From Pseudarthrobacter defluvii (lineage in GTDB: Bacteria; Actinomycetota; Actinomycetes; Actinomycetales; Micrococcaceae): a DNA stretch of 64,000 nucleotides. Made by a program: the position numbers and the translations under genes. This document shows positions 17,768-54,409 of this stretch, piece after piece. Position 1 is the stretch's first letter; each line of letters opens with the position of its first letter. The notes under the pieces were generated by a model. That model did no database searches and had not been told where the DNA came from. It was given only the letters and a program-made list of their open reading frames with translations. The stretch covers positions 372,001 through 436,000 of the forward strand of contig NZ_CP066362.1 in assembly GCF_030323865.1 (NCBI RefSeq), in the 5' to 3' direction.

Positions 17768-17900
17768 GATCCCCGGGATTGGCGCCGTCTGCGGCTGGCT
17801 CAGCGTATCCGGAGCAGTCCGACTGCCGGCGCCCGTCCCGACGCATGACCGCTGCGGCCCTTACGGGCTGCGGTTTCCAACTGAACATGCCTTCGACCTG

Positions 17901-18138
17901 CGGCGGGAGAGCCTTGCCGGGTACATTTAGCAGGCGCCGTAGGAGCAAACCCTCCCCAGGAAACTCTCAGGCCCACGTACCGCCGCGGACAGGCAACTCT
18001 GGAAAGCAGCCAGGCATGCCCTGGCTCACCGACGGTGCAAGCGGCTTGGGCTGCGGAAACTCTCAGGTTCCCTACAGAGCGGGGAGGAACCAAATCTTTT
18101 GCGGTACCCAAAATGCCGCTTTACCGATGGAGTTCCTC
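17901..18138 (+). ncRNA. Tandem glycine riboswitch upstream of the CycA-type permease
   Basis: Aptamer 1 (about 17903-17990) carries GGGAGAG, GCCGTAGGAGCAA and ACTCTCAGG. Aptamer 2 (about 17996-18080) carries CTCTGGAAAGC, CACCGACGGTGCAA, ACTCTCAGGTTC and ACAGAG. As in the gcvP leader, GAGGAAC follows aptamer 2 (18084-18090) and is complementary to GTTCCTC at 18132-18138, directly before the ATG. Bases 17931-17982 are an inverted near-copy (2 differences in 52) of 17513-17564 in the gcvP riboswitch, so one probably arose from the other. Confidence 0.92.
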
Positions 18139-38587: not shown

Positions 38588-39628
38588 TTAGGGTTTGCGC
38601 GGCTTGAGGGCGGGGGAAGGGGCTGCCCCTTCCCCCGTCCCCATGCCCTGGAGGAGTTCCTTGACGGCGTCAATGGAGGATACCTTTGGTTCCCACCCAA
38701 GGATCCGCCGGGCCCGGCTGGTGTCCATGATGGGCGCACCGGCGGCCATCTCCACCCAGCCGGAATCGGTGGGCTGGATCCTTGCCCGCCACGTCAGGTC
38801 GACTACGGCGTGGAGCAGCCGCATGGGGACGGGCAGTATTCTCTTGGCGCCGAGGATGCGGGCCAGTTCCCGGGGGTTCAGGACGGGCTCTGCGGCAATG
38901 TTGAAGGCGCCGCTGGCCCGCTGGTCCACCGCGCGCCAGTAGGCCTCCGCGACGTCGTCCGCATGGACTGCCTGGAAAACCAGGTTGTCCGGAGCCGGCA
39001 GCAGTGGAAGCCATGGTTTCCGCGGGACGAGCCGCGGAAAGACGTGTCCCAGGAAGTACCTGCCGATCTCACTTCCCGCCCGGCCCTGGAAGATGAGCCC
39101 CGGCCGGAGCCTGGCCACCGAAATGTCCGGGTGGGCGGCAGCGAACTCATCCAGCAGTCTTTCCTGCTCGGCTTTGTGCCGGCTGTAATGGGACCCGGCC
39201 ATTCCGGTTGCCGGCCAGGTCTCGTCCCTGCGCGGATCCTTGCCGGCCTTGCTGTAGGCGCCCACGGAGGACGCGCAGACAACCTGTTTCACGCCCGCCC
39301 TGGCAGCAGCTTCCAGCAGGTTCTTCGTGCCGGTGACATTGGTCCTGTGCAGGAGGTCCAAATTGTGGTTTGGCTGAATTTGCCACGCCAGATGGACCAC
39401 CGCATCGACGCCCAGGAGGGCATTCTCCAACTTCGGCCTGTCCTGCTCCAGGCCCACGTCCAGCGTGTGCCACTGCACGCCCACGTAGGGCTCTTGGGAA
39501 GTGTCGGGCAGCCTGCGGCTGATGCCCACAAGCTGCAGGCTGCCGGGCTTCCGGGCAAGCTGGCCCTGCAGGTTGCGCAGCAGGGCTGTTCCGGCATTTC
39601 CGCTGGCTCCGGTGATGGCGATGCGCAT
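38588..39628 (-). CDS. NAD-dependent epimerase/dehydratase (extended SDR)
   Basis: A 346-residue extended SDR protein. The Rossmann motif is TGASGNAG (residues 6-13). The catalytic tyrosine and lysine are in HYSRHKAE (about 147-154), preceded by ASSVGAYS. It resembles the sugar nucleotide epimerase and hydroxysteroid dehydrogenase groups. The substrate cannot be read from the sequence. It is divergent from the sigma factor gene, with 148 bases between. Confidence 0.83.
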   Translation of the reverse strand: MRIAITGASGNAGTALLRNLQGQLARKPGSLQLVGISRRLPDTSQEPYVGVQWHTLDVGLEQDRPKLENALLGVDAVVHLAWQIQPNHNLDLLHRTNVTGTKNLLEAAARAGVKQVVCASSVGAYSKAGKDPRRDETWPATGMAGSHYSRHKAEQERLLDEFAAAHPDISVARLRPGLIFQGRAGSEIGRYFLGHVFPRLVPRKPWLPLLPAPDNLVFQAVHADDVAEAYWRAVDQRASGAFNIAAEPVLNPRELARILGAKRILPVPMRLLHAVVDLTWRARIQPTDSGWVEMAAGAPIMDTSRARRILGWEPKVSSIDAVKELLQGMGTGEGAAPSPALKPRKP

Positions 39629-39776: not shown

Positions 39777-40736
39777 ATGCCCGAATCCTTTGCCGCATTT
39801 GCCGTGGACGCTGCGCCTGTCCACCATCAACAGCCGGAACCGGCTCCACAACAAAGTCCCCCCGCCACCTCAGGACGGCTGCGGGAGACGTTCGAAAACG
39901 ACCTGGTCCTGCGCTACCTGGACCTCGCCGAAGCCCTTGCCGCGAGGTTTGAGGCCCGAGGGAGGGAACGCGCTGACCTGAACCAAGTGGCCTACCTGGG
40001 CCTGGTGAAAGCGGCACGCGGATTCGACCAGGCGAAGGGTGAAAGCTTTCCCGCCTATGCCGCCCCCACCATCACCGGGGAACTCAAGAGGTACCTCCGC
40101 GACCGCACGTGGGTTGTCCGCCCTCCGCGTCACATCCAGGACCTGAGGACCCGGCTGTTCCGGGCAGAGCCTGAGCTGACCCAGTCATTGGGCCGGAGCC
40201 CAAGCGTTGCTGAGCTGGCCGGTGAACTGGGAGCTGACCCGGCTGATGTGCAGGAGGCCATTTCGGCATCGAGCAGCATGCACCCGGATTCCCTCGACGC
40301 AGTAAACCCCAACTCGGACGCACCCTCCATCGGCGAAGTGCTGGCATGCCCGGAAACCCCGCTCGAGCGGCTTGAGGAACTCGCCTGCCTCCGGGACGCC
40401 ATGCAGGACCTGGACGACTCGGACCGCGAGCTTTTGTACCGCCGCTACTTCTGCGAGGAAACACAGGTGCAGCTGGGAAAGCGGTTGGGCATGTCCCAAA
40501 TGCAGGTGTCGCGCCGCCTGGCCAAGGTGCTGGTGGAACTGCAGCGGCGCCTGGAGGCAAGCGCCCAGTTCTCCCGGCCTGAGGATGCGGTTGGCACCGG
40601 AACCTCAACGCACGCCGGGCACGCTGACCGTATGGGCAGCCCGGTTGCGCAGTTCCGCCAGACCAGGAGCGCCGGGCACCAGGGCATGGCCCGCACCGGA
40701 GCCGGCCGCCGAATTGGCGGCACCCGGACCAGGTAG
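39777..40736 (+). CDS. RNA polymerase sigma factor, SigB/SigF family
   Basis: A 319-residue alternative sigma factor. Region 2 covers about 35-110 (LNQVAYLGLVKAARGFDQAKGESFPAYA is its core at about 67-95). Region 3 has TWVVRPPRHIQDLRTRL. Region 4 near 235-270 has the helix-turn-helix TQVQLGKRLGMSQMQVSRRLAKVL. This pattern fits the stress/sporulation group (SigB, SigF). After about 275 there is a disordered Arg/Gly/Ser tail not usual in the family. No anti-sigma factor gene is adjacent. The RBS GAGGGAAA precedes the ATG. Confidence 0.9.
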   Translation: MPESFAAFAVDAAPVHHQQPEPAPQQSPPATSGRLRETFENDLVLRYLDLAEALAARFEARGRERADLNQVAYLGLVKAARGFDQAKGESFPAYAAPTITGELKRYLRDRTWVVRPPRHIQDLRTRLFRAEPELTQSLGRSPSVAELAGELGADPADVQEAISASSSMHPDSLDAVNPNSDAPSIGEVLACPETPLERLEELACLRDAMQDLDDSDRELLYRRYFCEETQVQLGKRLGMSQMQVSRRLAKVLVELQRRLEASAQFSRPEDAVGTGTSTHAGHADRMGSPVAQFRQTRSAGHQGMARTGAGRRIGGTRTR

Positions 40737-41044
40737 CAGCAGTCCAGGTAGCAGTAGTCCCTTCAGGACGCCCCCGGCAGTTTCCGCGACGGCGCAGCCG
40801 CTGATGACGGCGCAGTCCCTGACCACGCTGCCATCTCTTGCCACGGTGCAGCTAATTTCCGACGGCGGCACACGGCTTCAAAGGCGCCGGCACGGGCGTG
40901 CGTGGAGAGGCTGGAAAGAGCCCTGGAAGGAGCAGCCGCGGCAACCCGCTCCCTATCTTGCCTGTTCAAACCGATGTCAGAACCAGCTTCCACAGCCGAA
41001 AAAGCCTAGGGCGCTGTTTAGGAGCAGCAGCAGGAGGGAACAGG
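40737..41044. other. 308-base intergenic stretch with short tandem repeats
   Basis: No convincing gene. It begins with a 15-base tandem duplication, AGGTAGCAGCAGTCC then AGGTAGCAGTAGTCC (40731-40760), the first copy covering the sigma factor's stop codon. GACGGCGCAGYC repeats follow. It ends with GGAGGG (41033-41038), the RBS of the heptose operon. No clear promoter could be assigned. Confidence 0.4.
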
Positions 41045-41587
41045 TTGGTTATGGGAAGCTCTGAAACCTCCAAGCTCCGGGCTGTCCTGTTCGACCGGGA
41101 CGGGACCCTGGTGGTCGATGTGCCTTACAACGGGGACCCCGGCAAAGTACGGCCCGTGGCCGGCGCCAAAGCCGTGCTGGACAGCCTGCGGGCAGACGGC
41201 ATCGCCACCGGCGTGATCAGCAACCAGTCGGGCATTGCCCGCGGACTGATCACGGCCGAAGACGTGGCAAAAGTCAATGCCCGCGTGGAAGAACTGCTGG
41301 GACCGTTCGACGTGTGGGAAGTTTGCCCCCATGCCGAGCAGGATGGCTGCGACTGCCGCAAACCTGCTCCCGGGATGGTGCACAGCGCCTGCCGCAAACT
41401 CGGGATCCTGGAATCCGAAGCCGCCCTGATCGGGGACATCGGTGCCGACGTGGGCGCTGCCGAAGCGGCCGGAGCCACCGGAGTCCTGGTTCCCACCCCC
41501 GTGACGCGCGCCGAAGAGGTAGTCGCTGCGCGGCTTGTAGCCCCGGATCTTGCGTCCGCCGTCGGACTGCTGCAGGGGACCGCCTGA
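41045..41587 (+). CDS. gmhB: D-glycero-D-manno-heptose 1,7-bisphosphate 7-phosphatase (GmhB-like)
   Basis: Removes the 7-phosphate of heptose 1,7-bisphosphate in the ADP-heptose pathway. The 180-residue HAD-IIIA enzyme has nucleophile Asp17 and acid Asp19 in FDRDGT, ISNQSGIARG as motif II, and the family's zinc loop Cys94-x-His96 with Cys102-x-Cys104, followed by RKP. Histidinol phosphatases share this fold, but gmhA and two hldE genes in the operon decide the call. I chose the TTG at 41045 because GGAGGG lies six bases upstream; the ATG at 41051 is the alternative. Confidence 0.88.
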   Translation: MVMGSSETSKLRAVLFDRDGTLVVDVPYNGDPGKVRPVAGAKAVLDSLRADGIATGVISNQSGIARGLITAEDVAKVNARVEELLGPFDVWEVCPHAEQDGCDCRKPAPGMVHSACRKLGILESEAALIGDIGADVGAAEAAGATGVLVPTPVTRAEEVVAARLVAPDLASAVGLLQGTA

Positions 41588-42675
41588 TGGGGCGCGTCCT
41601 GGTGGCCCGGCTGGACAGCATGGGCGATGTCTTGCTGGCCGGCCCCGCCGTCCGGGCAGTGGCCAACGGGCGGGCACAGTACGGCGGCAGCACCAACCAC
41701 GTGGTGATGCTGTGCGGCCGGCAGGGTGAAGCTGCTGCCGCGATGCTGCCGGGGGTGGCAGAGGTTTACAGCTGGGACAGCCCCTGGATCATGAACCCGG
41801 CGCCCAGGATGACAGGCCCGCATGCCGACCGGCTGATCGAATTCGTCCGCAATTCCCGGATCACCGAAGCCGTCATCCTTACCTCCTTCCACCAGTCACC
41901 GCTGCCGCTGGCGCTGCTGCTGCGGCTGGCCGGCGTGGAGCGCATCACGGGGGCCTCAACCGACTACGCAGGCTCACTCCTGGACATTCGCCTCAAGCCC
42001 GGCGAGGACTTCCCCGAAGACCAGCCGGAGGCGGAACGCGCGCTGGGCATTGCCGAGGCCGCAGGTTTCCGGCTTCCGGCCGGCGACGACGGGAAACTCC
42101 ATGTCGGCTCCATCCCCGACGTAACCGGCCTGGTAGGCGACGAACCCTATGTCGTGGTCCACCCCGGAGCGGCCGTCCCCGCAAGGGCCTGGCCCCCGCT
42201 GCACCATGCCGCCGCCGTCGAACTCCTCCAGGGCGCCGGGTACCGCGTGGTGGTAACCGGCGGTCCGGCGGAAAAGTCGCTGACCGCCACGGTGGCTGGC
42301 CCTTCTGCCCTGGACCTGGGCGGACGCACTGATCTTTCCACCATGGCGGGCGTCATGGCCGGCGCCGATGCCGTGGTCAGCGGCAATACCGGCCCGGCCC
42401 ATTTGGCGGCCGCGGTGGGTACACCCGTCGCGTGCCTGTTTTCCCCCGTGGTCCCGGCCATCCGCTGGGCGCCGTATGGCGTGCCCTTGGAACTCCTCGG
42501 GGACCAGAATGCCCCCTGCCGCATGTCCCGCGCCCGGGTTTGCCCGGTCCCCGGCCACCCCTGCCTCGACTCGGTTTCGCCCGAAGAAGTGGTGGCGGCG
42601 GTGGAACGCCTGATCAGCGGGGTGAGTTCCTTCAGCACCCACGTGAGTACCCGTAGAAAGGCCCGCAACAGATGA
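41587..42675 (+). CDS. Glycosyltransferase family 9, heptosyltransferase-like
   Basis: Probably transfers heptose from an ADP-heptose donor to a cell-surface acceptor. The 362-residue GT-B protein has the family 9 start (RVLVARLDSMGDVLLAGPAVRA) and the donor-site segment VVSGNTGPAHLAAAVGTPVACLFSP (about 263-287). The acceptor in a Gram-positive cell cannot be LPS core. The ATG overlaps the gmhB stop by one base (TGATG). Confidence 0.87.
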   Translation: MGRVLVARLDSMGDVLLAGPAVRAVANGRAQYGGSTNHVVMLCGRQGEAAAAMLPGVAEVYSWDSPWIMNPAPRMTGPHADRLIEFVRNSRITEAVILTSFHQSPLPLALLLRLAGVERITGASTDYAGSLLDIRLKPGEDFPEDQPEAERALGIAEAAGFRLPAGDDGKLHVGSIPDVTGLVGDEPYVVVHPGAAVPARAWPPLHHAAAVELLQGAGYRVVVTGGPAEKSLTATVAGPSALDLGGRTDLSTMAGVMAGADAVVSGNTGPAHLAAAVGTPVACLFSPVVPAIRWAPYGVPLELLGDQNAPCRMSRARVCPVPGHPCLDSVSPEEVVAAVERLISGVSSFSTHVSTRRKARNR

Positions 42676-43706
42676 GAATCCTGCTCTGGCATGTCCACGG
42701 TTCCTGGACGGACGCGTTTGTCCGCGGCCGTCATGAGTACCTGCTTCCCGTCCTACCCGGAGGTGGGGCCTGGGGACTGGGCCGCGCCGGCAGGGACTGG
42801 CCGGAATTCGTGCGGGAGGTGGACCTGGCGACGCTCGACGCCGACTCCGTGGACGCCGTCGTCCTCCAACGGCCCGAAGAGATCGACGAAGTGGTCCGCG
42901 CTTTGGGACGCATGCCCGGCGTCGACCTTCCGGCGGTATTCGTGGAACACAACACGCCCAAGGGCAACTTCCCGAACATCAGCCACCCGCTCGCTGACCA
43001 AAAGAGCATCCCCCTTGTGCACGTCACCCACTTCAACCGGCTGGCCTGGGACAACGGCTCCGCTCCCACCACCGTGATCGAGCACGGCATCCCCGACCCC
43101 GGGCAGCTCTACACCGGCGAACTGCCCGAACTGGGCGTCGTGATCAACGAGCCCGTCCGCCGCGGCCGCGTCACCGGAACTGACCTGCTGCCGGGCTTCG
43201 CTTCTGTGGCACCGCTGCAGGTGTTCGGCATGAAGACGGACGGCCTCGCGGAAGCCACCGGAATCGAAGCATCACGGCTGACGGCCCGGGGAGACCTGAA
43301 AACCCTTGACCTGCACCGGGAACTGGCCCGCTGCCGGGTCTACGTCCACCCGATGCGCTGGACCTCGCTGGGCCTGTCTCTCCTGGAAGCCATGCATCTG
43401 GGCATGCCGGTGGTGGTGCTCGCAGCCACGGAGGCGCCGCGGGCAGTGCCGCAGGAAGCCGGCATCGTTTCCGCGGACGTCGACGAACTGCTCCGTTGCG
43501 CGGCGCGGCTGGTTGCCAATCCGGATGAGGCCCGACGGCGGGGACTTGCCGCCCGTGAGGCGGCGCTGGAGCGTTACGGCCTGGGCAAGTTCCAGGACCG
43601 CTGGGATGAGCTCCTGGCGGACCTGCGGAGCCGGCCCCGGCACTCCGACAACGAACGTCCGGACGAGCGGATCCTCGTTCCGGCGCGGGAGAGGAAGACC
43701 CCATGA
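42672..43706 (+). CDS. GT-B glycosyltransferase
   Basis: A 344-residue glycosyltransferase with family 1/4-like features. The N-terminus MRILLWHVHGSWTDAFVRG leads a Rossmann-like domain. The C-terminal half has VYVHPMRWTSLGLSLLEAMHLGMPVVV (about 236-262), the conserved nucleotide-sugar site with its glutamate. The donor is unknown; in this operon ADP-heptose is possible. ATGA overlap with the preceding gene. Confidence 0.84.
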   Translation: MRILLWHVHGSWTDAFVRGRHEYLLPVLPGGGAWGLGRAGRDWPEFVREVDLATLDADSVDAVVLQRPEEIDEVVRALGRMPGVDLPAVFVEHNTPKGNFPNISHPLADQKSIPLVHVTHFNRLAWDNGSAPTTVIEHGIPDPGQLYTGELPELGVVINEPVRRGRVTGTDLLPGFASVAPLQVFGMKTDGLAEATGIEASRLTARGDLKTLDLHRELARCRVYVHPMRWTSLGLSLLEAMHLGMPVVVLAATEAPRAVPQEAGIVSADVDELLRCAARLVANPDEARRRGLAAREAALERYGLGKFQDRWDELLADLRSRPRHSDNERPDERILVPARERKTP

Positions 43707-44980
43707 AAATCGCAATGATTTCCGAGCACGCCAGTCCGCTGGCGGCACTGGGCGGGGTGGATGCCGGCGGGCAGAACGTGCACGTTGCCGCGCTGTCAGA
43801 AGCCCTTGCCAACCGGGGCCACCACGTCACCGTCTATACCCGCAGGGATGCAAAGGAGCTCCCCGGGAGGGTACGGGTGGGACGCCGCCTCGAGGTGGTC
43901 CACGTAGACGCCGGGCCTGCCCGGCACGTGCCCAAGGACGAACTGCTGCCCTACATGGGTGAGCTCGCCGACGGCGTGGCCAGCGACTGGGGCCAGCAGC
44001 CGCCGGACGTGGTCCACGGACACTTCTGGATGTCCGGCCTGGCCGCCCTGGACGCAGCCCGGCGGCCGGACACCGGCTACCGGGTGCCGATGCTGCAGAC
44101 GTTCCACGCGCTGGGAACCGTCAAGCGCAGGCACCAGGGTGCGGAGGACACCAGCCCGGAGGCACGCCGCTGGCTGGAACCGGGCGTGGGACGCTCCGCG
44201 GACCGGATCATCGCCACCTGTTCGGACGAGGTCTTCGAGCTCAAGGCCATGGGCATCGCCACCAACAAGATCTCGATCGCACCCTGCGGTGTGGACCTTG
44301 GCTTCTTCTCCCCGGACGGTCCTGCCGCTGCCCGGAAGCGCCGCTACCGGATCCTGTCCGTGGGACGGCTGGTGCCGCGCAAGGGCGTGGACCTGGTGAT
44401 CCGGGCCCTCCCGTACCTCAAGGCCGCGGGGTTCGAAGACGTTGAACTCCTGATTGTGGGCGGCGGCGGGGACTCGAACGTGATGCACGCCGACCCGGAA
44501 ATCCGCCGCCTCCTGGACCTTGCCGCCGAACTCGGCGTGTCCGAACAGGTAACGCTGCAGGGCCAGGTCTCCCGGGCTGAGATGCCCGGCATCTTCCGCA
44601 GCGCCGACGCCGTGGTGTGCGCACCCTGGTACGAGCCCTTCGGCATCGTGCCGCTCGAGGCCATGGCCTGCGGCGTGCCCGTGGTGGCAGCCGCCGTGGG
44701 CGGGCTCCGCGACACGGTGGTGGACCACGCCACCGGCCTGCACGTGCCGCCCAAGGACCCTGAGGCCATCGCGTCGGCCCTGTCGCTGCTGCTGGAAAAC
44801 CCAACCCTCAGGACCAAGCTCGGCCAGGCCGGCGAGCGGCGTGCCCGCACCCGTTACTCGTGGGACCGGGTGGCAGCGGAAACCGAAAAGGCCTACCAGC
44901 TGGCCGTGGCCGGCGTCCAGAAAAGCGCCCAGCCGGGCGCTCCGGCCGGCATCGTACCGATGGAAGGAGCCGCACTGTGA
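43703..44980 (+). CDS. Glycosyltransferase family 4
   Basis: A 425-residue GT4 protein. The start MKIAMISEHASPLAALGGVDAGGQNVHV is the acceptor-side loop found in sucrose-synthase-like and MshA-like GT4 enzymes (here spanning residues 1-28). The donor site is EPFGIVPLEAMACGVPVVA (about 312-330), with the E-x7-E motif. It overlaps neighbours on both sides by 4 bases (ATGA, GTGA), so it belongs to the heptose operon. It might add the first or a later sugar; the acceptor is unknown. Confidence 0.88.
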   Translation: MKIAMISEHASPLAALGGVDAGGQNVHVAALSEALANRGHHVTVYTRRDAKELPGRVRVGRRLEVVHVDAGPARHVPKDELLPYMGELADGVASDWGQQPPDVVHGHFWMSGLAALDAARRPDTGYRVPMLQTFHALGTVKRRHQGAEDTSPEARRWLEPGVGRSADRIIATCSDEVFELKAMGIATNKISIAPCGVDLGFFSPDGPAAARKRRYRILSVGRLVPRKGVDLVIRALPYLKAAGFEDVELLIVGGGGDSNVMHADPEIRRLLDLAAELGVSEQVTLQGQVSRAEMPGIFRSADAVVCAPWYEPFGIVPLEAMACGVPVVAAAVGGLRDTVVDHATGLHVPPKDPEAIASALSLLLENPTLRTKLGQAGERRARTRYSWDRVAAETEKAYQLAVAGVQKSAQPGAPAGIVPMEGAAL

Positions 44981-45702
44981 CTGCCGAATCATCCCTGCGT
45001 GAATCAAGCCTGCGCGAAGCAGACCTCCGCACACTGATGGTGCCGCCGGCGCTGCCTGCGGTGCTCCCGGGAGCCACGTTCGTGGACCCCGCCAGTGCGG
45101 ACGCCGTCCGCACGCACCTGGACAACGTGCTTCCGGCGCTGGACTCGCTGCGCAGCCAGTCCGGCCGGCTTGCAGCCTGGGGTGTGGAGCTGGCCCAGCG
45201 CCTCCTTCGCGGCCAACGGCTCCTGGCGGCCGGAAACGGCGGATCGGCCGCGGAGGCGCAGCACCTGACCGCCGAATTGGTGGGCCGGTTCGACTCCGAG
45301 CGGGTGCCCTTCTCCGCCATCTCCCTGCATGCCGAGTCGTCCGCCGTCACCGCGATCGCCAACGACTACGGGTACGACGACGTCTTTGCCCGGCAGGTGC
45401 GGGCGCACGGCCGCTCGGGCGACGTGCTGATGCTGCTGTCCACCAGCGGCAAGAGTCCCAACCTGCTGCGGGCCGCGGAAGCTGCCTCCCGCCTCAACGT
45501 GACCACCTGGGCACTCACCGGCTCCGGGCCCAATCCCTTGTCGGAAGCCTGCGACGAAGCCGTCATGGTGGACGCCCTGAACGCCAACGCCCAGGAAGGA
45601 CACCTGATCGCCCTGCATGCAGTGTGCCGCGCCTTCGACCTTGAGGTGGCCCGGCACACCCCCTCCCTGGGCACCGCGGCGGCAAACGGAGGCCGGCGAT
45701 GA
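44977..45702 (+). CDS. gmhA: Sedoheptulose 7-phosphate isomerase (GmhA-like)
   Basis: First enzyme of the pathway: turns sedoheptulose 7-phosphate into D-glycero-D-manno-heptose 7-phosphate. The 241-residue SIS-domain protein has the phosphate-binding GNGGSAAEAQH (from residue 86), ELVGRF, STSGKSPNLL and the C-terminal active-site segment EGHLIALHAVCRAF. About 45 N-terminal residues exceed the usual length (roughly 195). GTG start, GTGA overlap with the GT4 gene. Confidence 0.9.
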   Translation: MTAESSLRESSLREADLRTLMVPPALPAVLPGATFVDPASADAVRTHLDNVLPALDSLRSQSGRLAAWGVELAQRLLRGQRLLAAGNGGSAAEAQHLTAELVGRFDSERVPFSAISLHAESSAVTAIANDYGYDDVFARQVRAHGRSGDVLMLLSTSGKSPNLLRAAEAASRLNVTTWALTGSGPNPLSEACDEAVMVDALNANAQEGHLIALHAVCRAFDLEVARHTPSLGTAAANGGRR

Positions 45703-47105
45703 GGATCGTCGTCGTGGGCGACGTCATGCTCGACGTCGACCTTTCCGGTGAGGCCACCCGGCTCAGCCCTGATGCCCCGGTACCCGTGGTGGACGTCTCC
45801 GGTGTCCGCCGCCGCGCCGGCGGTGCGGGCCTGGTGGCGCGCATGCTGGCCCAGGACGGCTGGCCGGTCACCCTGGTGACGGTCCTGGGGGATGACGACG
45901 CCGGCAGCCAGTTGCGTGCGCACCTCGGCGGGGTGCGGCTCGTGGCGGGCAGCAGCGGCTACCCCTCCCCGGTTAAGACCAGGGTGCGTGCTGGTTCCCA
46001 TCCGGTGGTCCGTTTCGACCAGGGCTGCGAGAAAACCCCTGTTCCCGACGTCAGCCCCGCCATGCTCCGTGCCGTGGAGAAAGCCGGCGTGGTCATTGTT
46101 GCCGATTACGGCAGGGGACTGGCGGCCAACCAGCAGCTGCGGGATACGCTCGCACGGCTTGCCGGTACTGTGCCCATCATCTGGGATCCGCACCCCTCGG
46201 GGCCGGAACCCGTGCCGGGCGTCGCCGTCGTGACTCCGAACATTTCCGAAGCCACCAAGGCCGTGCAGTCCGGAGCCGGCGGCCTTCCCGACTCCGATGA
46301 CCCCGCGGCAGCCGTAGCGGAGGTCCTGTTGCAGCGTTGGCGCAGCCAGGCCGTCCTGGTGACGAAGGGCGAGGAAGGGGCCCTCCTGCTGCAGCAGGGA
46401 GAGGCCGCTTCCCGCGCCGTTCCCGCGCCACGGGTGGAAGCCGGCGACCCCTGCGGTGCCGGCGACCGGTTGGCGGCCAGCCTTGCAGTGCACCTCCTGG
46501 CCGGACGCGACCTGCCGGAAGCGGCCGCGCTGGCAGTCCACGACGCCGCGGATTTCCTGGCGGCAGGGGGCGTCTCGGCATTGCCGGAGACCGATCAAGC
46601 CGATGCTGCCGCCGGCAAGCCCAGGCCCACGCCGGTCCCGGCCCGGCGAACCACCGAGCCGCTGCTGCTGGCCCGTTCGGTGCGCGAAAGCGGCGGAAAG
46701 GTGGTGGCCACGGGTGGTTGCTTCGACCTGATCCACGCCGGCCACATCCGGTCCCTTGCGGCAGCCCGCGAACTGGGGGACTGCCTCATCGTGTGCCTGA
46801 ACTCCGACGACTCGGTGCGGCGGCTGAAGGGCCCGCAACGTCCCATCATCGGCCAGCACGACAGGGCGGAACTGCTCCTGGCCATGGAATGCGTGGACGC
46901 CGTGATGGTCTTCGACGAGGACACCCCCGAAGCAGCGCTGGACCGGCTCCGCCCCGATATCTGGGTCAAAGGCGGCGACTACAAAGGCGCCCGCCTCCCC
47001 GAGGCGGACCTGGTGGAAAGCTGGGGCGGACGCTGCCTCACCGTCCCTTTCCACCCCGCCCGCTCCACGACAGGCCTGGCCGACGCACTCGCCAAGGTCA
47101 GCTGA
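45699..47105 (+). CDS. hldE: Bifunctional heptose 7-phosphate kinase/heptose 1-phosphate adenylyltransferase, copy 1
   Basis: Does two pathway steps: phosphorylation at C1 and, after GmhB, adenylylation to ADP-heptose. Of 468 residues, about 1-300 are the PfkB-type kinase (GDVMLDVDL start, CGAGD with Asp256 as base). About 320-468 are the nucleotidyltransferase, with GCFDLIHAGH (H346 and H349), KGGDY and ARSTT. A proline-rich linker joins them. Catalytic motifs are intact in both halves, although the kinase half is shorter and more divergent than in copy 2 (49408-50943). ATGA overlap with gmhA. Confidence 0.9.
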   Translation: MRIVVVGDVMLDVDLSGEATRLSPDAPVPVVDVSGVRRRAGGAGLVARMLAQDGWPVTLVTVLGDDDAGSQLRAHLGGVRLVAGSSGYPSPVKTRVRAGSHPVVRFDQGCEKTPVPDVSPAMLRAVEKAGVVIVADYGRGLAANQQLRDTLARLAGTVPIIWDPHPSGPEPVPGVAVVTPNISEATKAVQSGAGGLPDSDDPAAAVAEVLLQRWRSQAVLVTKGEEGALLLQQGEAASRAVPAPRVEAGDPCGAGDRLAASLAVHLLAGRDLPEAAALAVHDAADFLAAGGVSALPETDQADAAAGKPRPTPVPARRTTEPLLLARSVRESGGKVVATGGCFDLIHAGHIRSLAAARELGDCLIVCLNSDDSVRRLKGPQRPIIGQHDRAELLLAMECVDAVMVFDEDTPEAALDRLRPDIWVKGGDYKGARLPEADLVESWGGRCLTVPFHPARSTTGLADALAKVS

Positions 47106-47150
47106 TCCTGACTACTTCGCAAACTTGTTTTCCCCATTGAAAGGAACACC

Positions 47151-47867
47151 ATGACTGCAGAACCAACTGCAACTGCCTCCACCACGCCTGGCCGCGTCCT
47201 GGTAACGGGAGGTGCCTCCGGACTGGGGGCCGCCGTCGTCGAAGCCGTCCTCCGGTCTGGCGGCACCCCGGTGGTCCTGGACCGCGACATCAGCAGCGTC
47301 TCCGGCGTGAAGGCGTTCGAAGTGGATGTGGCGGACCGCGCCGCCGTGGAGCAGGCCGTGCGTGAAGCCGCGGAGACCCTGGGCGGCCTGGACGCGGTGG
47401 TGACGGCGGCCGGGATCGACCGCTGCGGCAAGCTCGCCGACGTCGAAGCCACCGAATGGGAAAAGGTCATCGGGGTCAACCTGATGGGCACCGTTTCCAC
47501 CGTGCGCGCGGCGTTGCCCTACCTCAAGGAAACCCACGGCCGGGTAGTCACCGTCGCCTCCACCCTTGGCAAGCGCGCCGTGGCCGATGCCACCGCCTAC
47601 TGCGCCTCCAAGTTCGGCGTTGTGGGCTTCAGCCACGCGCTCGCTGCGGAAACCGGTGGCGAAATCGGCGTGACCACCATGATCCCCGGCGGCATGAAGA
47701 CGCGCTTCTTCGATGACCGGACGGAGCAGTACAAGCCGCAGGATGATTCCCGGCTCAACGACCCCGCCAACACTGCGCAGGCCATCCTGTTCGCCCTCAA
47801 CCAGCCCACCGGCTGCGAGGTCCGCGAAATGCTGATCTGCCACGAGGAAGAAGGCTCCTGGCCCTAA
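47151..47867 (+). CDS. Short-chain dehydrogenase/reductase
   Basis: A 238-residue classical SDR. NAD(P) motif TGGASGLG (about 19-26), catalytic YCASK (about 147-151), preceded by VASTLG. It is not an HldD-type epimerase, which is an extended SDR of about 310 residues. It starts 45 bases after hldE copy 1, with GAAAGGAA upstream. Its place between the two hldE genes suggests a redox step on a sugar or on a precursor, unproven. Confidence 0.84.
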   Translation: MTAEPTATASTTPGRVLVTGGASGLGAAVVEAVLRSGGTPVVLDRDISSVSGVKAFEVDVADRAAVEQAVREAAETLGGLDAVVTAAGIDRCGKLADVEATEWEKVIGVNLMGTVSTVRAALPYLKETHGRVVTVASTLGKRAVADATAYCASKFGVVGFSHALAAETGGEIGVTTMIPGGMKTRFFDDRTEQYKPQDDSRLNDPANTAQAILFALNQPTGCEVREMLICHEEEGSWP

Positions 47868-47886
47868 GCCGGAACCGGCCGCACCA

Positions 47887-47925
47887 CCTGCTGTGGCCGC
47901 ACCCAACTGGTGCGGCCACAGCAGG
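47887..47925. repeat. Perfect 17-bp hairpin within the heptose operon
   Basis: Arms 47887-47903 and 47909-47925 (CCTGCTGTGGCCGCACC and its complement) with a 5-base loop CAACT. Very stable, but no T-run follows, and the next gene has its own strong RBS (GGGAGGAA). It could slow the polymerase, set mRNA ends or reduce downstream expression. Confidence 0.65.
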
Positions 47926-47971
47926 ACCACCAGCAGCAACTCATCCAGCACCGAAAGGCGGGAGGAACACC

Positions 47972-49411
47972 ATGCCCACCACAGCCATCGAAACAACCGC
48001 AGGCAACGAAACAGCCCAGGGCGCCGGCGTCACCATCCAGGACCCGCGCACCGGAGAGGTGCTTTGGACAGTTCCCGAAGCGGGACCGGACGCAGTAAAC
48101 CATGCCGTGGGCGTGGCCCGCAGGGCTGCACCCGGCTGGGCAGCAACAGCTCCCGCCGAACGTGGCGCAGCCCTCCGCGCCGCGGCGAAGGCGCTCGAAG
48201 CAGCAGCCCAGGAGCTCGCGGGCCTGAACGCCAGCGAAACCGGACGGCCGGAAGCCGAGGCACTGGCAGGCATCGCCGCCGGCGTCTCCACCCTGGAGCA
48301 GTACGCCGAGCTGGGCCCGGTCCAGCGCGGTCACAGCCTCCGCGGCAGCCGCTCAGCCACCGACTACACCATCGCTGAACCGCGCGGAGTGGCAGTCCTG
48401 CTGACCCCGTGGAACGACCCCGTAGCCGTGGCCTGCGGACTGATCGGCGCCGCGCTGGTCACAGGCAACGCGGTGATCCACAAACCCAGTGAGCGCTGTC
48501 CGCGCCTGGGCGAGGCGCTTGGCGAGGTCTTGGCCCCGGCCTTCCCCTCCGGCGTCTTCCTGACCATTTCCGGCGGGGCCGGAGTGGGTGCCGCCCTGTC
48601 CCAGGCAGAAGTGGACGTCATTGCCCATGTTGGCTCCAGCGCATCCGGTGCCCGGATAGCCCAGGCGGGAGCCCGCACGGGTGCCCACGTCATCAGGGAA
48701 AACGGCGGCAACGACCCCCTGCTGGTGGACCGCGACGTGGACCCGGCGTGGGCTGCCGGGCAGGCGGCGATCGGCGCGTTCGCCAACAGTGGGCAGATCT
48801 GCACCTCGGTGGAACGGATCTATGTCCACCGCGATATTGCCGAGGAATTCTGCAGCGCCCTGGAGGCAGAGGCAGCGCTCCGGAACAGCAACGGCACCGT
48901 GGCGCCGCTGGTGGACCTGCGGATGCGGGACGCTGTCCATGCCCACGTTGCCGATGCCCTGGCGGAGGGCGCGCGTGCGCTTGAGGGCGGTGCCCTGCCG
49001 GAGGGGCCGGGCTCGTTCTACCCCGCCACCGTCTTGCTCGACTGCACCGACGACATGGCGGTCATGACGGAAGAAACCTTCGGCCCGGTTGCCCCGGTGC
49101 AGGTGGTGGACACGTTCGACGACGGCCTGCGCCTGGCCTGCAGCGGCAAGTACGGCCTGGCCGCCACTGTCCTGAGCGGCAACATCGCACACATCCAGCA
49201 GGCAGTGGCCGCGCTGCCCGTGGGAACCGTGAAGGTCAACGCAGTGTTCGGCGGCGCACCCGGAGGCGCTGCCCAGCCCCGCGGAGAGAGCGGTGCCGGG
49301 TTCGGCTACGGGCCCGAACTGCTGGACGAGTTCACCCAGGTCAAGGTGGTGCACATCGAAGCTCCGCCGGCACCTGCAGGCTCCGTCCCCGAGGAACAGG
49401 ACCTGCCATGA
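47972..49411 (+). CDS. Aldehyde dehydrogenase family protein
   Basis: NAD(P)-dependent aldehyde oxidation. The 479-residue protein has all core features: cofactor site TPWNDP (in place of the common TPWNFP), general base Glu243 in RENGGNDP, and nucleophile Cys277 in NSGQICTS, 34 residues later as in the family. EETFGPVAPV follows near 370. The substrate is unknown; a sugar-derived aldehyde is plausible from the context. RBS GGGAGGAA. It ends in an ATGA overlap with hldE copy 2. Confidence 0.88.
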   Translation: MPTTAIETTAGNETAQGAGVTIQDPRTGEVLWTVPEAGPDAVNHAVGVARRAAPGWAATAPAERGAALRAAAKALEAAAQELAGLNASETGRPEAEALAGIAAGVSTLEQYAELGPVQRGHSLRGSRSATDYTIAEPRGVAVLLTPWNDPVAVACGLIGAALVTGNAVIHKPSERCPRLGEALGEVLAPAFPSGVFLTISGGAGVGAALSQAEVDVIAHVGSSASGARIAQAGARTGAHVIRENGGNDPLLVDRDVDPAWAAGQAAIGAFANSGQICTSVERIYVHRDIAEEFCSALEAEAALRNSNGTVAPLVDLRMRDAVHAHVADALAEGARALEGGALPEGPGSFYPATVLLDCTDDMAVMTEETFGPVAPVQVVDTFDDGLRLACSGKYGLAATVLSGNIAHIQQAVAALPVGTVKVNAVFGGAPGGAAQPRGESGAGFGYGPELLDEFTQVKVVHIEAPPAPAGSVPEEQDLP

Positions 49412-50943
49412 GCACCTCCCCGGAACACGCCGATCTCTCCACCCAGCGGGCGCTGTCCGACTGGCTGCCCGGCCGGCTGGCCGCGGAGCAGCCTTCGATC
49501 CTGGTGATCGGTGACGTCATGTTGGACGGCTGGTGGAGCGGCAGCATTGACCGGCTGTGCCGGGAAGCCCCGGCGCCGGTGGTGGACATTCAGACCCGCG
49601 AATCGGTTCCGGGCGGGGCGGCCAACACCGCCATGAATCTGGCCGCCCTCGGAGCGAAGGTGTCGGTGGCAGGCATCGTCGGCGCCGACGACGCCGGTGA
49701 GGACCTGCGCGGGCAGCTTGCGGCCGCAGGCATCGATGTCCAGCACCTGCTCACACACCCGGACATGGTTACCACCACCAAGATCCGGATCAGCAGCGGG
49801 GGCCAGGTGATGCTGCGCCTCGACGACTCAGCCAAAGCTGTCCCTGCCGAAGCACTCGCCGCGCTCACCGCGTCGGTGCGTGCCGCCGTCGATCGCCAGG
49901 ATGCTGTGCTGGTGTGCGACTACGGAACCGGCGTGGTGGCGGACCCTGTCCGCTCGGCTCTTGCCGATGTCCTGGGCAGCGGGAATGCCGGAACCGACCG
50001 TCCGCTCGTGGTGGTTGACGCGCACGACCCCCGCCCGTGGGCTGCCCTGGAGCCTGACCTAGTGACCCCGAATGCGCAGGAGACCGCGCAGCTGCTGGAC
50101 CGGAAACTGCCGGAAGGCCAGGAACGGGTGGACGCGGTGGGCGCCGAAGCCGCCGCGTTGCTGCGGGGAACCGGTGCGCGCGCCGTGGTGGTCACCCTGG
50201 ACCGGGACGGCACCGTGCTGTTGACTTCCGACGGCGTGCGGCACCGCACGTGGGCGCGGCCGGCAGCCGAGAAACAGGCCTCCGGGGCGGGCGATACCTT
50301 TGTGGCGGCCCTGACGTTGGCCCGGGCAGCCGGGCTTCCGCTGACCGCCAGCCTGGACCTGGCCCAGTCGGCCGCCGATGTGGTGGTGCACCAGCCCGGC
50401 ACCTCCGTGTGCAGCACCGCCCAGCTCAGCCGGTACCTGGAGGCCTTCGCGGACACGGCGCTGAGCGCGGATGAGCTGGAGCGGCAAATGGAGCTGCACC
50501 GGGCCCAGGGCCAGCGGATCGTGCTGACCAACGGCTGCTTCGACGTGCTGCACAGCGGCCATACCCGCTACCTGAACCAGGCCAAACAACTGGGTGATGT
50601 CCTGGTGGTGGCCCTGAACAGCGACGACTCCGTGCGCCGGCTCAAGGGTGCCGGCCGGCCCATCAACAACGGGGTGGACCGGGCAGCAGTGGTGGCGGCC
50701 CTCAGCTGCGTGGACTACGTGACGGTATTCGACACCCCCACGGCCACGCCGCTGATCCGCAGGCTCCGGCCCGAGGTGTACGCCAAGGGCGGGGACTACA
50801 CCCCCGAAATGTTGGAGGAGACCCCGGCCGTGGAGGAGTACGGCGGCCGCGTGGCCATCCTGGACTACGTGGCAGAGCGGTCCACCACGGCTGTGGTGAA
50901 CCGGATCCGGGACGGCAAGGGGGCAGCCAGCCCGGTCAACTAG
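49408..50943 (+). CDS. hldE: Bifunctional heptose kinase/adenylyltransferase, copy 2
   Basis: A second complete HldE-type protein, 511 residues, longer than copy 1 by an N-terminal extension of about 30. The kinase part has GDVMLDGWWSGSIDRL, GGAANTAMNLAALG (substrate site) and SGAGDTF, with Asp296. The transferase part has GCFDVLHSGHTRYL (H382, H385), LNSDDSVRRLKG, KGGDYTPE and ERSTT. This copy looks closer to the canonical enzyme than copy 1 and may be the main ADP-heptose maker. ATGA overlap with the aldehyde dehydrogenase gene. Confidence 0.91.
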   Translation: MSTSPEHADLSTQRALSDWLPGRLAAEQPSILVIGDVMLDGWWSGSIDRLCREAPAPVVDIQTRESVPGGAANTAMNLAALGAKVSVAGIVGADDAGEDLRGQLAAAGIDVQHLLTHPDMVTTTKIRISSGGQVMLRLDDSAKAVPAEALAALTASVRAAVDRQDAVLVCDYGTGVVADPVRSALADVLGSGNAGTDRPLVVVDAHDPRPWAALEPDLVTPNAQETAQLLDRKLPEGQERVDAVGAEAAALLRGTGARAVVVTLDRDGTVLLTSDGVRHRTWARPAAEKQASGAGDTFVAALTLARAAGLPLTASLDLAQSAADVVVHQPGTSVCSTAQLSRYLEAFADTALSADELERQMELHRAQGQRIVLTNGCFDVLHSGHTRYLNQAKQLGDVLVVALNSDDSVRRLKGAGRPINNGVDRAAVVAALSCVDYVTVFDTPTATPLIRRLRPEVYAKGGDYTPEMLEETPAVEEYGGRVAILDYVAERSTTAVVNRIRDGKGAASPVN

Positions 50944-50975: not shown

Positions 50976-51938
50976 ATGGGCAAACGCGGAAAGTCAGGCG
51001 GCCGGGCCCGGTCCGCGCCGGGTGTGGTGGAGGTGCCCAAGGGCGTTGCCCCCGCCGGCCCGGTGGAGGGTGTGTACTACATCGACACCGGTGACTGCGA
51101 GCTGGTCGCGGACCAGGACAACTCCACCGGCTGGCTCCTGAAGATCAACGGCGTCATGAGCTCCCACATCGACCTGGCCGATCCGCTGTTCCTGGACTTC
51201 GAGTACATGCGGTGGATGGCGGCGCTCATCGAGTCCCGCTGGCCGCCGTCGTCGTCTGCTGGTTCCCCGGCCGGGGGTGGCCACAAACTCCGTGGGCTGC
51301 ACCTGGGCGGCGGGGCCTGCTCCATGGCGCGCTACTTCGCGGCCGTCTACCCGGACGCCCGGCAGGTGGTGGTGGAACTGGACGGGAAGCTGGCCGAGTA
51401 CGTGCGCGGCTGGTTCGACCTTCCCAAGGCGCCCGTGCTGCGGATCCGCGTGGGGGAGGCCCGCGCCGTAACGGAAACCCTCACTGCCCAGACCAGGGAC
51501 TTCATCATCCGGGACGTCTTCGCCGGCGCCCACACCCCGCGCCCGCTGACCACGGCGGAGTTCACTGCCCACGCCAAGCGGGTCCTGGCGCCGGGCGGCC
51601 TGTACGTGGCCAATTCCGGCGATGCCCCGGACCTCAAGAACGCGCGGGAAGACGCCGCCACTATCGCGGCAGCCTTCAAGCACACCGTGATCATCGCCGA
51701 CCCCGCCATGCTCAAGGGCAGGCGCTACGGAAACATGGTGATGGCCGGCAGCGATGTGCCCTTCGGCCACGACCCCCAGTTGCGCCGCCGGCTCCTGGGC
51801 GGCGCCGTCCCCGCGCACCTCTGGGACGATGCGCAGGTCCGGGCGTTCGCCGCCGGAGCACCGGTCCGTCACGACCCCGCTCCCACCCCATCGATTGATC
51901 CCCACCGGCCCCCTGACCTCACAAGTTCGGCCAGGTAA
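50976..51938 (+). CDS. Spermidine synthase-like methyltransferase-fold protein
   Basis: A 320-residue protein of the spermidine-synthase-like Rossmann group. It shows LHLGGGACSMARYFAAVYP (SAM/dcSAM site, about 107-125), VVELDGKLAEYVR, then IIRDVFAGAHTPRPLTTAEF, typical of this group. Stand-alone members in actinobacteria have no proven polyamine activity. The N-terminus is basic. It lies 32 bases after hldE copy 2, so it may ride on the operon without taking part. Confidence 0.82.
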   Translation: MGKRGKSGGRARSAPGVVEVPKGVAPAGPVEGVYYIDTGDCELVADQDNSTGWLLKINGVMSSHIDLADPLFLDFEYMRWMAALIESRWPPSSSAGSPAGGGHKLRGLHLGGGACSMARYFAAVYPDARQVVVELDGKLAEYVRGWFDLPKAPVLRIRVGEARAVTETLTAQTRDFIIRDVFAGAHTPRPLTTAEFTAHAKRVLAPGGLYVANSGDAPDLKNAREDAATIAAAFKHTVIIADPAMLKGRRYGNMVMAGSDVPFGHDPQLRRRLLGGAVPAHLWDDAQVRAFAAGAPVRHDPAPTPSIDPHRPPDLTSSAR

Positions 51939-51984: not shown

Positions 51985-52902
51985 TTACTCAGCAGTCGAT
52001 GAGGATTCCTGCTTCCCCAGGAGCGCTTCGCGGTACTCAGCCATCCGGTCCTGGAGTGCCTGCACGACGGCGGCAACCGCCGGGCGGCGCAGCGAGTCAG
52101 GGCGCAGGACCATCCAGTAGGGGAGCAGTTCGCCGATCTTGTCGGGCAGGAGCCGGACCAGGTCATCGTGGAGGTCTGCCATGAAGCACGGCAGGAACCC
52201 AACGCCGGCGCCGGCCCGGGTGGCCTCCACATGGACGAACACGTTGGTGGAGGTAAGGCCGTCCCGCATGGCGGGGACCAGTCGGCGCGGCGCGTCGAGG
52301 TCGTCCACCTGCAGCATTGAGTCCACGAAGTAGACCAGTGGGTGCTGGTTGAGTTCTCCCACTGTGGCCGGCGTTCCGTGCTCCTCGAGGTAGGTGCGCG
52401 AGGCGTACATGCCGAGCCGGTATTCGCCCAGCCGGATGGCCTCGGCACGGTGCACCTGGGGCACGCCCACCACCACCTCGATGTCCAGCCCGGACCGCTG
52501 CTGCAGGGCCCGGCGGGTCATGGTCACCACTTCCACGCTGAGGCCGGGGTGGTCCCGGCGCAGCCGCGCCACGGCCGGGGCGGCAATATAGGCGCTGAAG
52601 CCATCCGTTGCGGTCATGCGTACGACGCCGGCAATCGCGTCGTGTGCCTGGCCCGTCGGTCCCAGCGTGCCCAGCACCGCCTCCACCTGCTCCGCCGCCC
52701 GCACCGCCTGTTCGCCAAGCTCCGTCAATTCCCAGCCACCGGCTGCGCGGGACAGGACCCTGCCGCCGAGTGCCTTTTCCAGCGAGGCGATCCTGCGCGA
52801 GACCGTGGTGTGGTTCAAGCCCAGGGCCTGGGCCGCCGTCGTGAATTTTGCCGAGCGGGACACCGCAAGCAGGACCAGCAGGTCGTCGGGGTTCGCCTTC
52901 AT
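51985..52902 (-). CDS. LysR-family transcriptional regulator
   Basis: A 305-residue LysR-type regulator. Winged helix-turn-helix at about 5-65 (FTTAAQALGLNHTTVSRRIASLEKALG). The effector-binding domain follows from about 90. I start it at the ATG at 52902, the family's usual distance from the helix-turn-helix. An ATG at 52941 with GAGGGC upstream would add 13 residues and is a real alternative. It is divergent from the MHS transporter gene, its likely target. Confidence 0.87.
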   Translation of the reverse strand: MKANPDDLLVLLAVSRSAKFTTAAQALGLNHTTVSRRIASLEKALGGRVLSRAAGGWELTELGEQAVRAAEQVEAVLGTLGPTGQAHDAIAGVVRMTATDGFSAYIAAPAVARLRRDHPGLSVEVVTMTRRALQQRSGLDIEVVVGVPQVHRAEAIRLGEYRLGMYASRTYLEEHGTPATVGELNQHPLVYFVDSMLQVDDLDAPRRLVPAMRDGLTSTNVFVHVEATRAGAGVGFLPCFMADLHDDLVRLLPDKIGELLPYWMVLRPDSLRRPAVAAVVQALQDRMAEYREALLGKQESSSTAE

Positions 52903-52982
52903 ATCTGCAATTGTGCACACACATAGTGCTGTTTTGGCCATTGAAGTGCCCTCTTTGTGCAGCAATACTCATCTGAGTCACT

Positions 52983-52998
52983 TGTGCTGGAGATCACA
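52983..52998. promoter_or_regulatory. CRP/GlxR-like site before the transporter gene
   Basis: TGTGC-N6-TCACA, one base from the CRP consensus TGTGA-N6-TCACA, lies 32 bases before the transporter's ATG. Carbon catabolite control of a carboxylate transporter would fit. Confidence 0.42.
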
Positions 52999-53029
52999 GC
53001 GCGTGTCAATGTGGACACTGAGGAGAACC

Positions 53030-54409
53030 ATGAGCATTGAGCAAGGCCGGGCAACGGATGCCGGGCGTGCACCCAAGGAATCGGGACTGAAGAGGGTTGT
53101 TGCCGCATCGATGGTGGGCACGGTGGTGGAATGGTACGAGTTCTTCCTGTACGCCACTGCCGCCACTTTGGTGTTCGGCAAGTACTTCTTTCCCGCCACA
53201 GGGAATGACCTGGACGGAATCATCCAGGCCTTCCTGACCTATGCCGTGGGCTTCATCGCCCGCCCGCTGGGCGGCATCGTCTTCGGCCAGATTGGAGACA
53301 GGCTGGGCCGCAAGCCCACGCTGCAGCTCACCATCGTCATCATCGGCGTGTCCACGTTCCTGATGGGCTGCCTCCCCGGTTTCGCCGACATCGGATACCT
53401 GGCCCCGGCGCTGCTGGTGGCCCTGCGCTTTATCCAGGGCTTCGCGCTGGGCGGCGAATGGGGCGGAGCAGTCCTCCTCGTGGCCGAACAGAGCCCGAAC
53501 AAGACCCGCGCCTTCTGGTCCAGCTGGCCGCAGGCCGCCGTCCCGGTGGGCAACCTGCTGGCCACCCTGGTGCTGTACATCATGTCCACCACCCTCAGCA
53601 GTGAGGCGTTCCTCGGCTGGGGTTGGCGCGTGGCCTTCTGGCTCTCCGCCGTAATCGTCTTCGTGGGCTACTACATCCGCACCAACGTCAGCGAGTCGCG
53701 CATCTTCCTCGAGGCGAAGGAGTTGGTCGAAAAGGAACAGGCCGTCAGCTATGGCGTCTTCGAAGTGCTCCGCAAGTACCCCAAGGGCATCTTCCAGGCC
53801 ATGGGCCTGCGGTTCGCGGAAAACATCATGTACTACCTGGTAGTCAGCTTCTCGATTGTCTACCTCAAGAGCGTGCACAAGTACGACACTTCATCGCTGC
53901 TGCTGGCACTGCTGATCGCGCACATTATCCACTTCGCCATCATCCCGCAGTACGGACGCCTGGCGGACCGGATCGGCCGCAAGCCCGTCTACCTGGCCGG
54001 CGCCATCCTCGGAGCCACCTGGCCGTTCTTCGCTTTCCCCATGTTCGATACCCGCAACGCCGTGGTCATCGTTCTGGCCGTGACCATCGGCCTCATCCTG
54101 CATGGCCTCATGTACGCCGGGCAACCGGCCATCATGGCCGAAATGTTCCCCACCCGCATGCGGTATTCCGGTGCATCCCTGGGCTCGCAGGTAACGTCCA
54201 TCTTCGCCGGTTCACTGGCGCCGTTGCTGGCCACCCAGTGGCTCAAGGACACCGGGTCCTGGCTGCCAACCGCCATCTACCTGGTGGTCGCCTGTGTCAT
54301 CACCGCCGTGGCCGTGTTGAGCCTGAAGGAGACCAAGGGCGTTGCGCTGGAGGACGTCGACAAGGAAGATGCTGCCCGCGAGGGGCTGCTGACCGCCGGA
54401 CGCCGCTGA
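53030..54409 (+). CDS. MHS-family MFS transporter (metabolite:H+ symporter)
   Basis: A 459-residue MFS protein of the metabolite:H+ symporter group, whose members carry shikimate, alpha-ketoglutarate, proline/betaine and short carboxylates. Helix 1 carries VGTVVEWYEFFLYATAA (the group's hallmark), and the loop 2-3 motif is GQIGDRLGRKPTL. Twelve helices are predicted. The ATG at 53030 has AGGAG upstream. With the 3-hydroxybutyrate dehydrogenase gene downstream, a 3-hydroxybutyrate-like substrate is a reasonable guess. Confidence 0.88.
   Translation: MSIEQGRATDAGRAPKESGLKRVVAASMVGTVVEWYEFFLYATAATLVFGKYFFPATGNDLDGIIQAFLTYAVGFIARPLGGIVFGQIGDRLGRKPTLQLTIVIIGVSTFLMGCLPGFADIGYLAPALLVALRFIQGFALGGEWGGAVLLVAEQSPNKTRAFWSSWPQAAVPVGNLLATLVLYIMSTTLSSEAFLGWGWRVAFWLSAVIVFVGYYIRTNVSESRIFLEAKELVEKEQAVSYGVFEVLRKYPKGIFQAMGLRFAENIMYYLVVSFSIVYLKSVHKYDTSSLLLALLIAHIIHFAIIPQYGRLADRIGRKPVYLAGAILGATWPFFAFPMFDTRNAVVIVLAVTIGLILHGLMYAGQPAIMAEMFPTRMRYSGASLGSQVTSIFAGSLAPLLATQWLKDTGSWLPTAIYLVVACVITAVAVLSLKETKGVALEDVDKEDAAREGLLTAGRR

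Follow-up and report, generated by a model that had tools for sequence, protein, structure and literature searches.

A putative stress-regulated heptose-glycan operon next to a SigB/SigF-type sigma factor gene in Pseudarthrobacter defluvii

The capacity to make adenosine diphosphate (ADP)-heptose is already known in kind from actinobacteria. Here we describe a nine-gene operon of Pseudarthrobacter defluvii (Actinomycetota; Micrococcaceae) that combines homologues of the heptose pathway enzymes with three glycosyltransferase genes and lies downstream of a gene for an RNA polymerase sigma factor of the SigB/SigF type. Positions refer to the window, the whole stretch of 64,000 nucleotides that was analyzed (contig NZ_CP066362.1, positions 372,001 to 436,000). 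We consider it likely that these genes form a stress-regulated heptose-glycan operon under the neighbouring sigma factor. The case draws on the genes, their conserved order, their co-occurrence with the sigma gene and a promoter-like element, from which we infer each substrate, the pairing of sigma factor with promoter, and the role in stress. The new part is the association of sigma factor, promoter and gene cassette; among the literature matches listed (titles and abstract openings), none described a sigma-controlled heptose operon in actinobacteria. An earlier sequence-only reading of this DNA had missed the regulatory setting, which we rate as the more informative part.

The sigma gene (39777–40736, + strand) runs in the same direction as the operon, 314 bases upstream of its first gene, gmhB. 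Its best NCBIfam match is the SigB/SigF/SigG-family model TIGR02980 (215 bits, E 9e-64), and it is the only match to that model at E ≤ 1e-40 in its genome. At the same threshold the model was detected in 41 of 149 genomes of the family, and the short glycosyltransferase gene gtA, our marker for the cassette, was found in 43 of the 149 (>300 bits). Both genes were present in 35 genomes, gtA only in 8, the sigma gene only in 6 and neither in 100 (Fisher p 3e-20, a value that ignores relatedness). The two lay less than 5 kb apart in 29 of the 35 genomes; distances in the other six were 11 kb, 12 kb and 45 kb, with three pairs on different contigs.

A predicted promoter, GTTTAG-N14-GGGAAC (41016–41041, + strand; motif scan), ends 9 bases upstream of the gmhB ATG. 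It fits the SigB consensus GTTTAA-N12-14-GGG(A/T)A(A/T), as given in the consulted part of PMC8346170, at 10 of 12 positions, and is of the SigB/F promoter class. Aligning the entire upstream region gave nothing informative in the portion inspected, and a motif scan took its place. GTTT-N15/16-GGGAA stood directly before gmhB in 29/29 upstream regions (the window and loci L003–L030), with shuffled sequences reaching at least that score in 2.6 of 29. Because most of these regions come from close relatives, the pattern test was repeated on diverged genomes. Across 39 loci, chosen by leaving out 27 close relatives and L034, L036, L038, L039, L064–L066 and L108, GTTT-N15/16-GGG(A/T)A preceded 22 of 95 lead starts versus 1 of 292 internal starts (shuffle expectation 0.15 and 0.17, respectively); one of the 22 sites (L112) is a coordinate artefact, leaving 21/94. 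When 42 family genomes were inspected one by one, omitting G105, whose cassette begins right at the end of a contig, the pattern was found before gmhB in 26/34 sigma-positive versus 0/8 sigma-negative genomes. The eight sigma-positive misses carry near forms, recognized post hoc: four have GTTTAG and GGGCA, three GATTA and GGGTA (by eye), and one a longer spacing. GTTT-N15/16-GGGTA also precedes gtA in L110, L111, L125 and L141.

Nine genes on the + strand span 41051–50943. A tight run (41051–47105) consists of gmhB (41051–41587), encoding a HAD-IIIA phosphatase of the GmhB (heptose 1,7-bisphosphate 7-phosphatase) type (TIGR01662, PRK08942); gt9 (41587–42675), for a heptosyltransferase-like glycosyltransferase of family GT9; gtA (42672–43706), for a short GT-B (GT4-type) glycosyltransferase (PF13692); gt4 (43703–44980), for a GT4 glycosyltransferase of the MshA/sucrose-phosphate-synthase type; gmhA (44977–45702, start codon GTG), for a SIS-domain isomerase of the GmhA (sedoheptulose 7-phosphate) type (TIGR00441; PDB 1tk9, 5i01); and hldE1 (45699–47105), for a putative heptose 7-phosphate kinase joined to a heptose 1-phosphate nucleotidyltransferase. 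The stretch 47151–50943 holds genes for a classical short-chain dehydrogenase (SDR; 47151–47867, PF00106, E 3e-41), an aldehyde dehydrogenase (ALDH; 47972–49411, PF00171, E 5e-103) and a second bifunctional HldE (hldE2; 49408–50943). gmhB and gt9 overlap by 1 base, and gt9/gtA, gtA/gt4, gt4/gmhA, gmhA/hldE1 and ALDH/hldE2 by 4 bases each; gaps of 45 and 104 bases separate hldE1 from the SDR gene and the SDR gene from the ALDH gene. Pfam backs every assignment (PF01075, PF13580, PF00294 with PF01467 twice, PF00106, PF00171 and HAD families). Re-reading the genes thus bore out the set of GmhA, GmhB, HldE, GT9 and two further glycosyltransferases with short overlaps given by the sequence-only reading; its inventory stands for the six genes from gmhB to hldE1, and left unmentioned the sigma gene as well as the second HldE, the SDR and the ALDH, which fall within the region it described.

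By homology, the GmhA, HldE and GmhB relatives cover all four steps from sedoheptulose 7-phosphate to a nucleoside diphosphate (NDP)-heptose, and these families are their nearest in NCBIfam. The earlier proposal of an enzyme set leading to ADP-heptose beside a GT9 protein is supported by this homology and by conserved motifs: the gene set can plausibly make ADP-heptose, and perhaps cytidine or uridine diphosphate (CDP/UDP)-heptose as well. GmhB carries DRDGT, CPH..CDCRKP and GDIGAD, which we take to be motifs of this phosphatase type. Alignment with E. coli HldE showed that both HldE proteins keep the catalytic GAGD and the nucleotidyltransferase motifs. The operon contains two full HldE genes with different kinase motifs: the HldE1 motif has diverged to GGAGL, whereas HldE2 shares GGAAN with E. 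coli, and the two kinases may therefore differ in substrate. Both have an arginine before STT (FHPARSTT in HldE1, YVAERSTT in HldE2). The consulted part of PMC11461863 describes (F/L)XXGXSTT with arginine at position 5 as the mark of a nucleoside triphosphate (NTP)-promiscuous HENase (STTR5), and commentaries on Tang et al. 2024, as far as consulted, tie this arginine to CDP/UDP use (PMC11461863, PMC11573728). Against that motif, both HldEs have the arginine at position 5 and lack the glycine at position 4, and tyrosine replaces F/L in HldE2. No HldD epimerase scored over the cut-off in the genome (best 130 vs 274.6 bits), suggesting a D,D form of the heptose unless the SDR or another epimerase substitutes. 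The upstream epimerase gene at 38588–39628 was rejected as HldD (21 vs 274.6 bits).

The cassette is conserved well beyond this strain. A scan of genome contigs with HldE1 gave 60 loci, of which 37 (L003–L039) match most of the query and 23 its nucleotidyltransferase domain only. Among L003–L030, all named Arthrobacter or Pseudarthrobacter, the order sigma-gmhB-gt9-gtA-gt4-gmhA-hldE1 was found in 28/28 (tblastn; L020 and L030 with some genes fragmented). L032 is a 29th such locus from gmhB to hldE1, on a contig that begins 2.2 kb before gmhB and in which no sigma gene was seen. In 26 of the 28 loci L003–L030 the SDR, ALDH and hldE2 genes come next; L005 is cut off by the edge of its contig, and L028 has no ALDH gene. 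In the phylum, gtA was present in 40/396 genomes (E ≤ 1e-20). The order gt9-gtA-gt4 holds in 23 of the 28 loci L074–L101 (the best 30 of these 40 genomes minus the own genome and one congener), the exceptions being L085, L091, L099, L100 and L101. Distant loci such as L035, L068 and L117 have an SDR beside the cassette, and L099 a 62% identical ALDH beside gtA. Of 32 larger loci grouped by similarity, the strain's own L108 included, 19 have a carbamoyltransferase, 13 an NDP-sugar epimerase/dehydratase, 10 an ALDH and 8 a sigma gene, that of L115 being nearer the RpoD/SigA type; gene picking here was crude and some clusters resemble antisense reading frames. No PF16861 match, our indicator of carbamoylation, was found in the P. 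defluvii genome.

Some copies are plasmid-borne. The Streptomyces plasmid locus L063 carries the cassette with a carbamoyltransferase and a second GT9, flanked by STAS, ANTAR, PP2C and CsbD genes. Two of 10 beta-proteobacterial plasmid hits were looked at, and both (Caballeronia and Paraburkholderia, L065 and L066) retain GT4, HAD, two GT9, carbamoyltransferase, GT2 and gtA genes, but neither gmhA nor hldE is annotated in the 25 kb inspected. This would be expected if the cassette drew on ADP-heptose made by the host; beta-proteobacterial hosts supply this sugar nucleotide themselves. L066 adjoins catalase, hemerythrin and CsbD genes. CsbD is regarded as a general-stress protein, and csbD lies within 7 kb of gtA in at least 5 of 80 gtA genomes (G185, G221, G243, G539 and G383; four from one genus).

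Several observations weigh against a sigma-controlled heptose operon. The sigma protein stays below the TIGR02980 cut-off (215–216 vs 234.35 bits), and the sigma gene occurs without gtA in six family genomes. Outside the family it lies within 10 kb of gtA in at least 3/37 and within 20 kb in at least 6/37 genomes, making the sigma neighbourhood mainly a feature of this family. All eight sigma-negative genomes belong to two genera and have a cassette of the carbamoyltransferase type, a contrast between few lineages, and near-identical spacers are common to some sigma-positive genomes; p-values therefore overstate independence. The −10 part of the element overlaps a Shine-Dalgarno-like AGGAGG, and an mRNA started from an element so close to the ATG (9 bases) would be nearly leaderless in this strain; the distance from element to start varies across other genomes, where gene starts are themselves inferred. 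A broad sigma regulon in the genome was not supported (GTTTAN{13,16}GGGWA, 25 sites vs 22 in the reversed control). Pattern scans found no SigB-type site upstream of four own csbD genes (L108, L168–L170) and reported none before the sigma gene itself. On the enzyme side, the curated equivalog cut-offs were missed by GmhA (146/209 bits), GmhB (103/178) and both HldE proteins (303 and 361/521), so the substrates, heptose included, are assigned by likeness; only the adenylyltransferase domain (rfaE_dom_II, TIGR02199, cut-off 181.5) reaches its equivalog cut-off among these models, at 190 bits in hldE2 and at 180.7 or 183.9 in two scans of hldE1. Finally, no heptose genes accompany gtA in the inspected stretches of L064 (a Clavibacter plasmid) and L112; a SigB/F-type sigma gene lies near gtA in both.

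The enzyme scores below cut-off, the GGAGL motif of HldE1 and the two loci lacking heptose genes would fit repurposed SIS, kinase, HAD and nucleotidyltransferase homologues acting on another sugar, with the SDR and ALDH in a different or degradative route. We regard this as unlikely: four steps of one pathway are conserved together with GT9 across the phylum, the catalytic GAGD and nucleotidyltransferase motifs are kept, and the adenylyltransferase domain scores over its cut-off.

The glycosyltransferases and their surroundings bear on the product. Gt9 matches PF01075 at 80 bits (gathering score 22; E 2e-22) and PDB entries 3tov, 1psw and 2gt1, and reached no heptosyltransferase equivalog cut-off in the NCBIfam scan. 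A structure model of GtA (predicted local distance difference test, pLDDT, 81) has a GT-B fold nearest to PimB' (3oka), with sucrose-phosphate synthase (6kih) and BshA also close. Gt4 best matches sucrose-phosphate synthase 6kih (212 bits), then 3c4q (185 bits), which we take to be MshA; the nearest relatives of Gt4 are thus enzymes with soluble acceptors. Gt4 as MshA itself was rejected, since it reaches 254 of the 462.5 bits of TIGR03449 and another gene of the genome scores 514. In a separate region of this genome (L108, C1:2051200–2071000), two more GT9 genes (C1:2060482–2062145) lie 3.4 kb from a csbD gene and near PLD-domain and GST-domain genes; in other genera, homologues of these two GT9 genes adjoin the cassette or form part of it. 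By eye, the stretches before the csbD genes of L108 and L169 (similarly L168) hold GCATGCTTA-type palindromes and no SigB-type element, hinting at another regulator.

The sequence-only reading held that the heptose must enter a surface glycan, glycolipid or secreted product, and a surface glycan of constitutive or growth-phase synthesis, be it a wall polysaccharide, a capsule or a lipoglycan, would suit the GT9 enzymes, familiar from core synthesis of lipopolysaccharide (LPS), the likeness of GtA to PimB' of phosphatidylinositol mannoside synthesis, and a gene for a sugar-type transporter of the major facilitator superfamily (MFS; 52616–54409), 1.7 kb downstream. The "must" found no support. 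None of the operon proteins looks multi-membrane-spanning, with at most two hydrophobic stretches in each cassette protein tested, a pattern compatible with helices buried in Rossmann-like folds; genes for a flippase, polymerase, exporter or lipid-carrier transferase are missing from the operon, and a surface polymer would require export genes. A surface glycan is therefore not implied. The MFS gene was matched in close relatives only (tblastn comparison of loci) and the promoter class points to stress control; we rate a surface glycan of this kind as doubtful. An oligosaccharide or glycolipid that contains heptose and is induced by stress would suit the genes equally well, and the product may be a soluble glycoside. 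The claim that this gene set has no described product agrees with the literature matches listed, none of which names one. A possibly related hint comes from the consulted part of PMC5563000, in which a gene named ADP-heptose:LPS heptosyltransferase is unique to salt-tolerant Frankia and up under salt. The words heptose and glycosyltransferase are absent from the consulted main text of a drought transcriptome of Arthrobacter sp. Helios (PMC9608346).

Distant relatives of HldE1 occur in other settings. In Blastococcus (L033) and, by similarity, in Acidimicrobiales (L035) and relatives, GmhB is fused behind a GT2 glycosyltransferase domain; branched-chain-amino-acid-type ABC genes lie near L033. 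In Streptomyces L034, a protein that fuses GmhA, kinase and nucleotidyltransferase is encoded together with GT9, an aminotransferase, an epimerase and dehydrogenases; this is probably a cluster for a heptose-containing secondary metabolite. Streptomyces L036 has the same HldE relative. L034 lends the P. defluvii operon some resemblance to a septacidin- or hygromycin-like secondary-metabolite cluster. We think this very improbable, as the operon lacks an aminotransferase or other such tailoring genes and gtA, in 43/149 family genomes, is widespread for an antibiotic cluster.

We hypothesize that the neighbouring SigB/F-type sigma factor steers RNA polymerase to GTTTAG-N14-GGGAAC, so that transcription would run from gmhB onward and give, in this strain, an mRNA whose 5′ leader is very short or absent. 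Gt9 would then transfer heptose, and GtA and Gt4 would add or start other sugars, on a cytosolic acceptor, giving a heptose-bearing oligosaccharide or glycolipid that serves the cell under stress. More broadly, and with slightly less than even confidence, we propose that the cassette, spread through many actinobacteria and some beta-proteobacteria and carried on plasmids in some, makes a so far undescribed class of bacterial stress glycan that contains heptose, is sometimes carbamoylated and is controlled by SigB/SigF-type sigma factors; the cassette would also endow Gram-positive cells with their own NDP-heptose, which is the ligand of ALPK1. An orphan sugar pathway would thereby become a question about stress responses, namely which molecule of Gram-positive soil bacteria bears heptose and what it protects. 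The cassette also flags actinobacteria as possible sources of NDP-heptose, which acts as an immune agonist in vertebrates, and predicts the circumstances of its synthesis.

Downstream of the operon lies a spermidine-synthase-like gene (50976–51938), present in 26/28 of L003–L030 (absent from L028 and from L005, which ends early); the tblastn comparison showed it in no distant locus. No Rfam family matched the operon at gathering scores; the only matches in the window are distant glycine riboswitches, three aptamers on both strands at ~17.5–18.1 kb (17503–17603, − strand; 17894–18087, + strand).

Among known systems, the general stress regulons of SigB (Bacillus, Streptomyces) and mycobacterial SigF share the sigma family and promoter class with this locus, whose genome shows no wider regulon. 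The papers searched showed no heptose target of these regulons, and PMC8346170, in the part consulted, contains none of the terms heptos, glycosyltransferase and carbamoyl. Septacidin and spicamycin clusters (named in the consulted part of PMC10948575) likewise build a heptose from sedoheptulose 7-phosphate in an actinobacterium; here no antibiotic tailoring genes were seen and the cassette is spread through the family. The tridomain NDP-heptose synthetases of actinobacteria, cited in the consulted part of PMC11573728, have the same enzyme domains in the same kind of host, whereas P. defluvii has a separate GmhA (44977–45702) and a didomain HldE (45699–47105) and Streptomyces L034 the fused form. 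With the LPS-type ADP-heptose pathway the operon shares, by homology, the same four activities and a bifunctional HldE; it differs in having no HldD over the cut-off, no LPS and two HldE genes, with an SDR and an ALDH in the run and a predicted sigma-type promoter in front.

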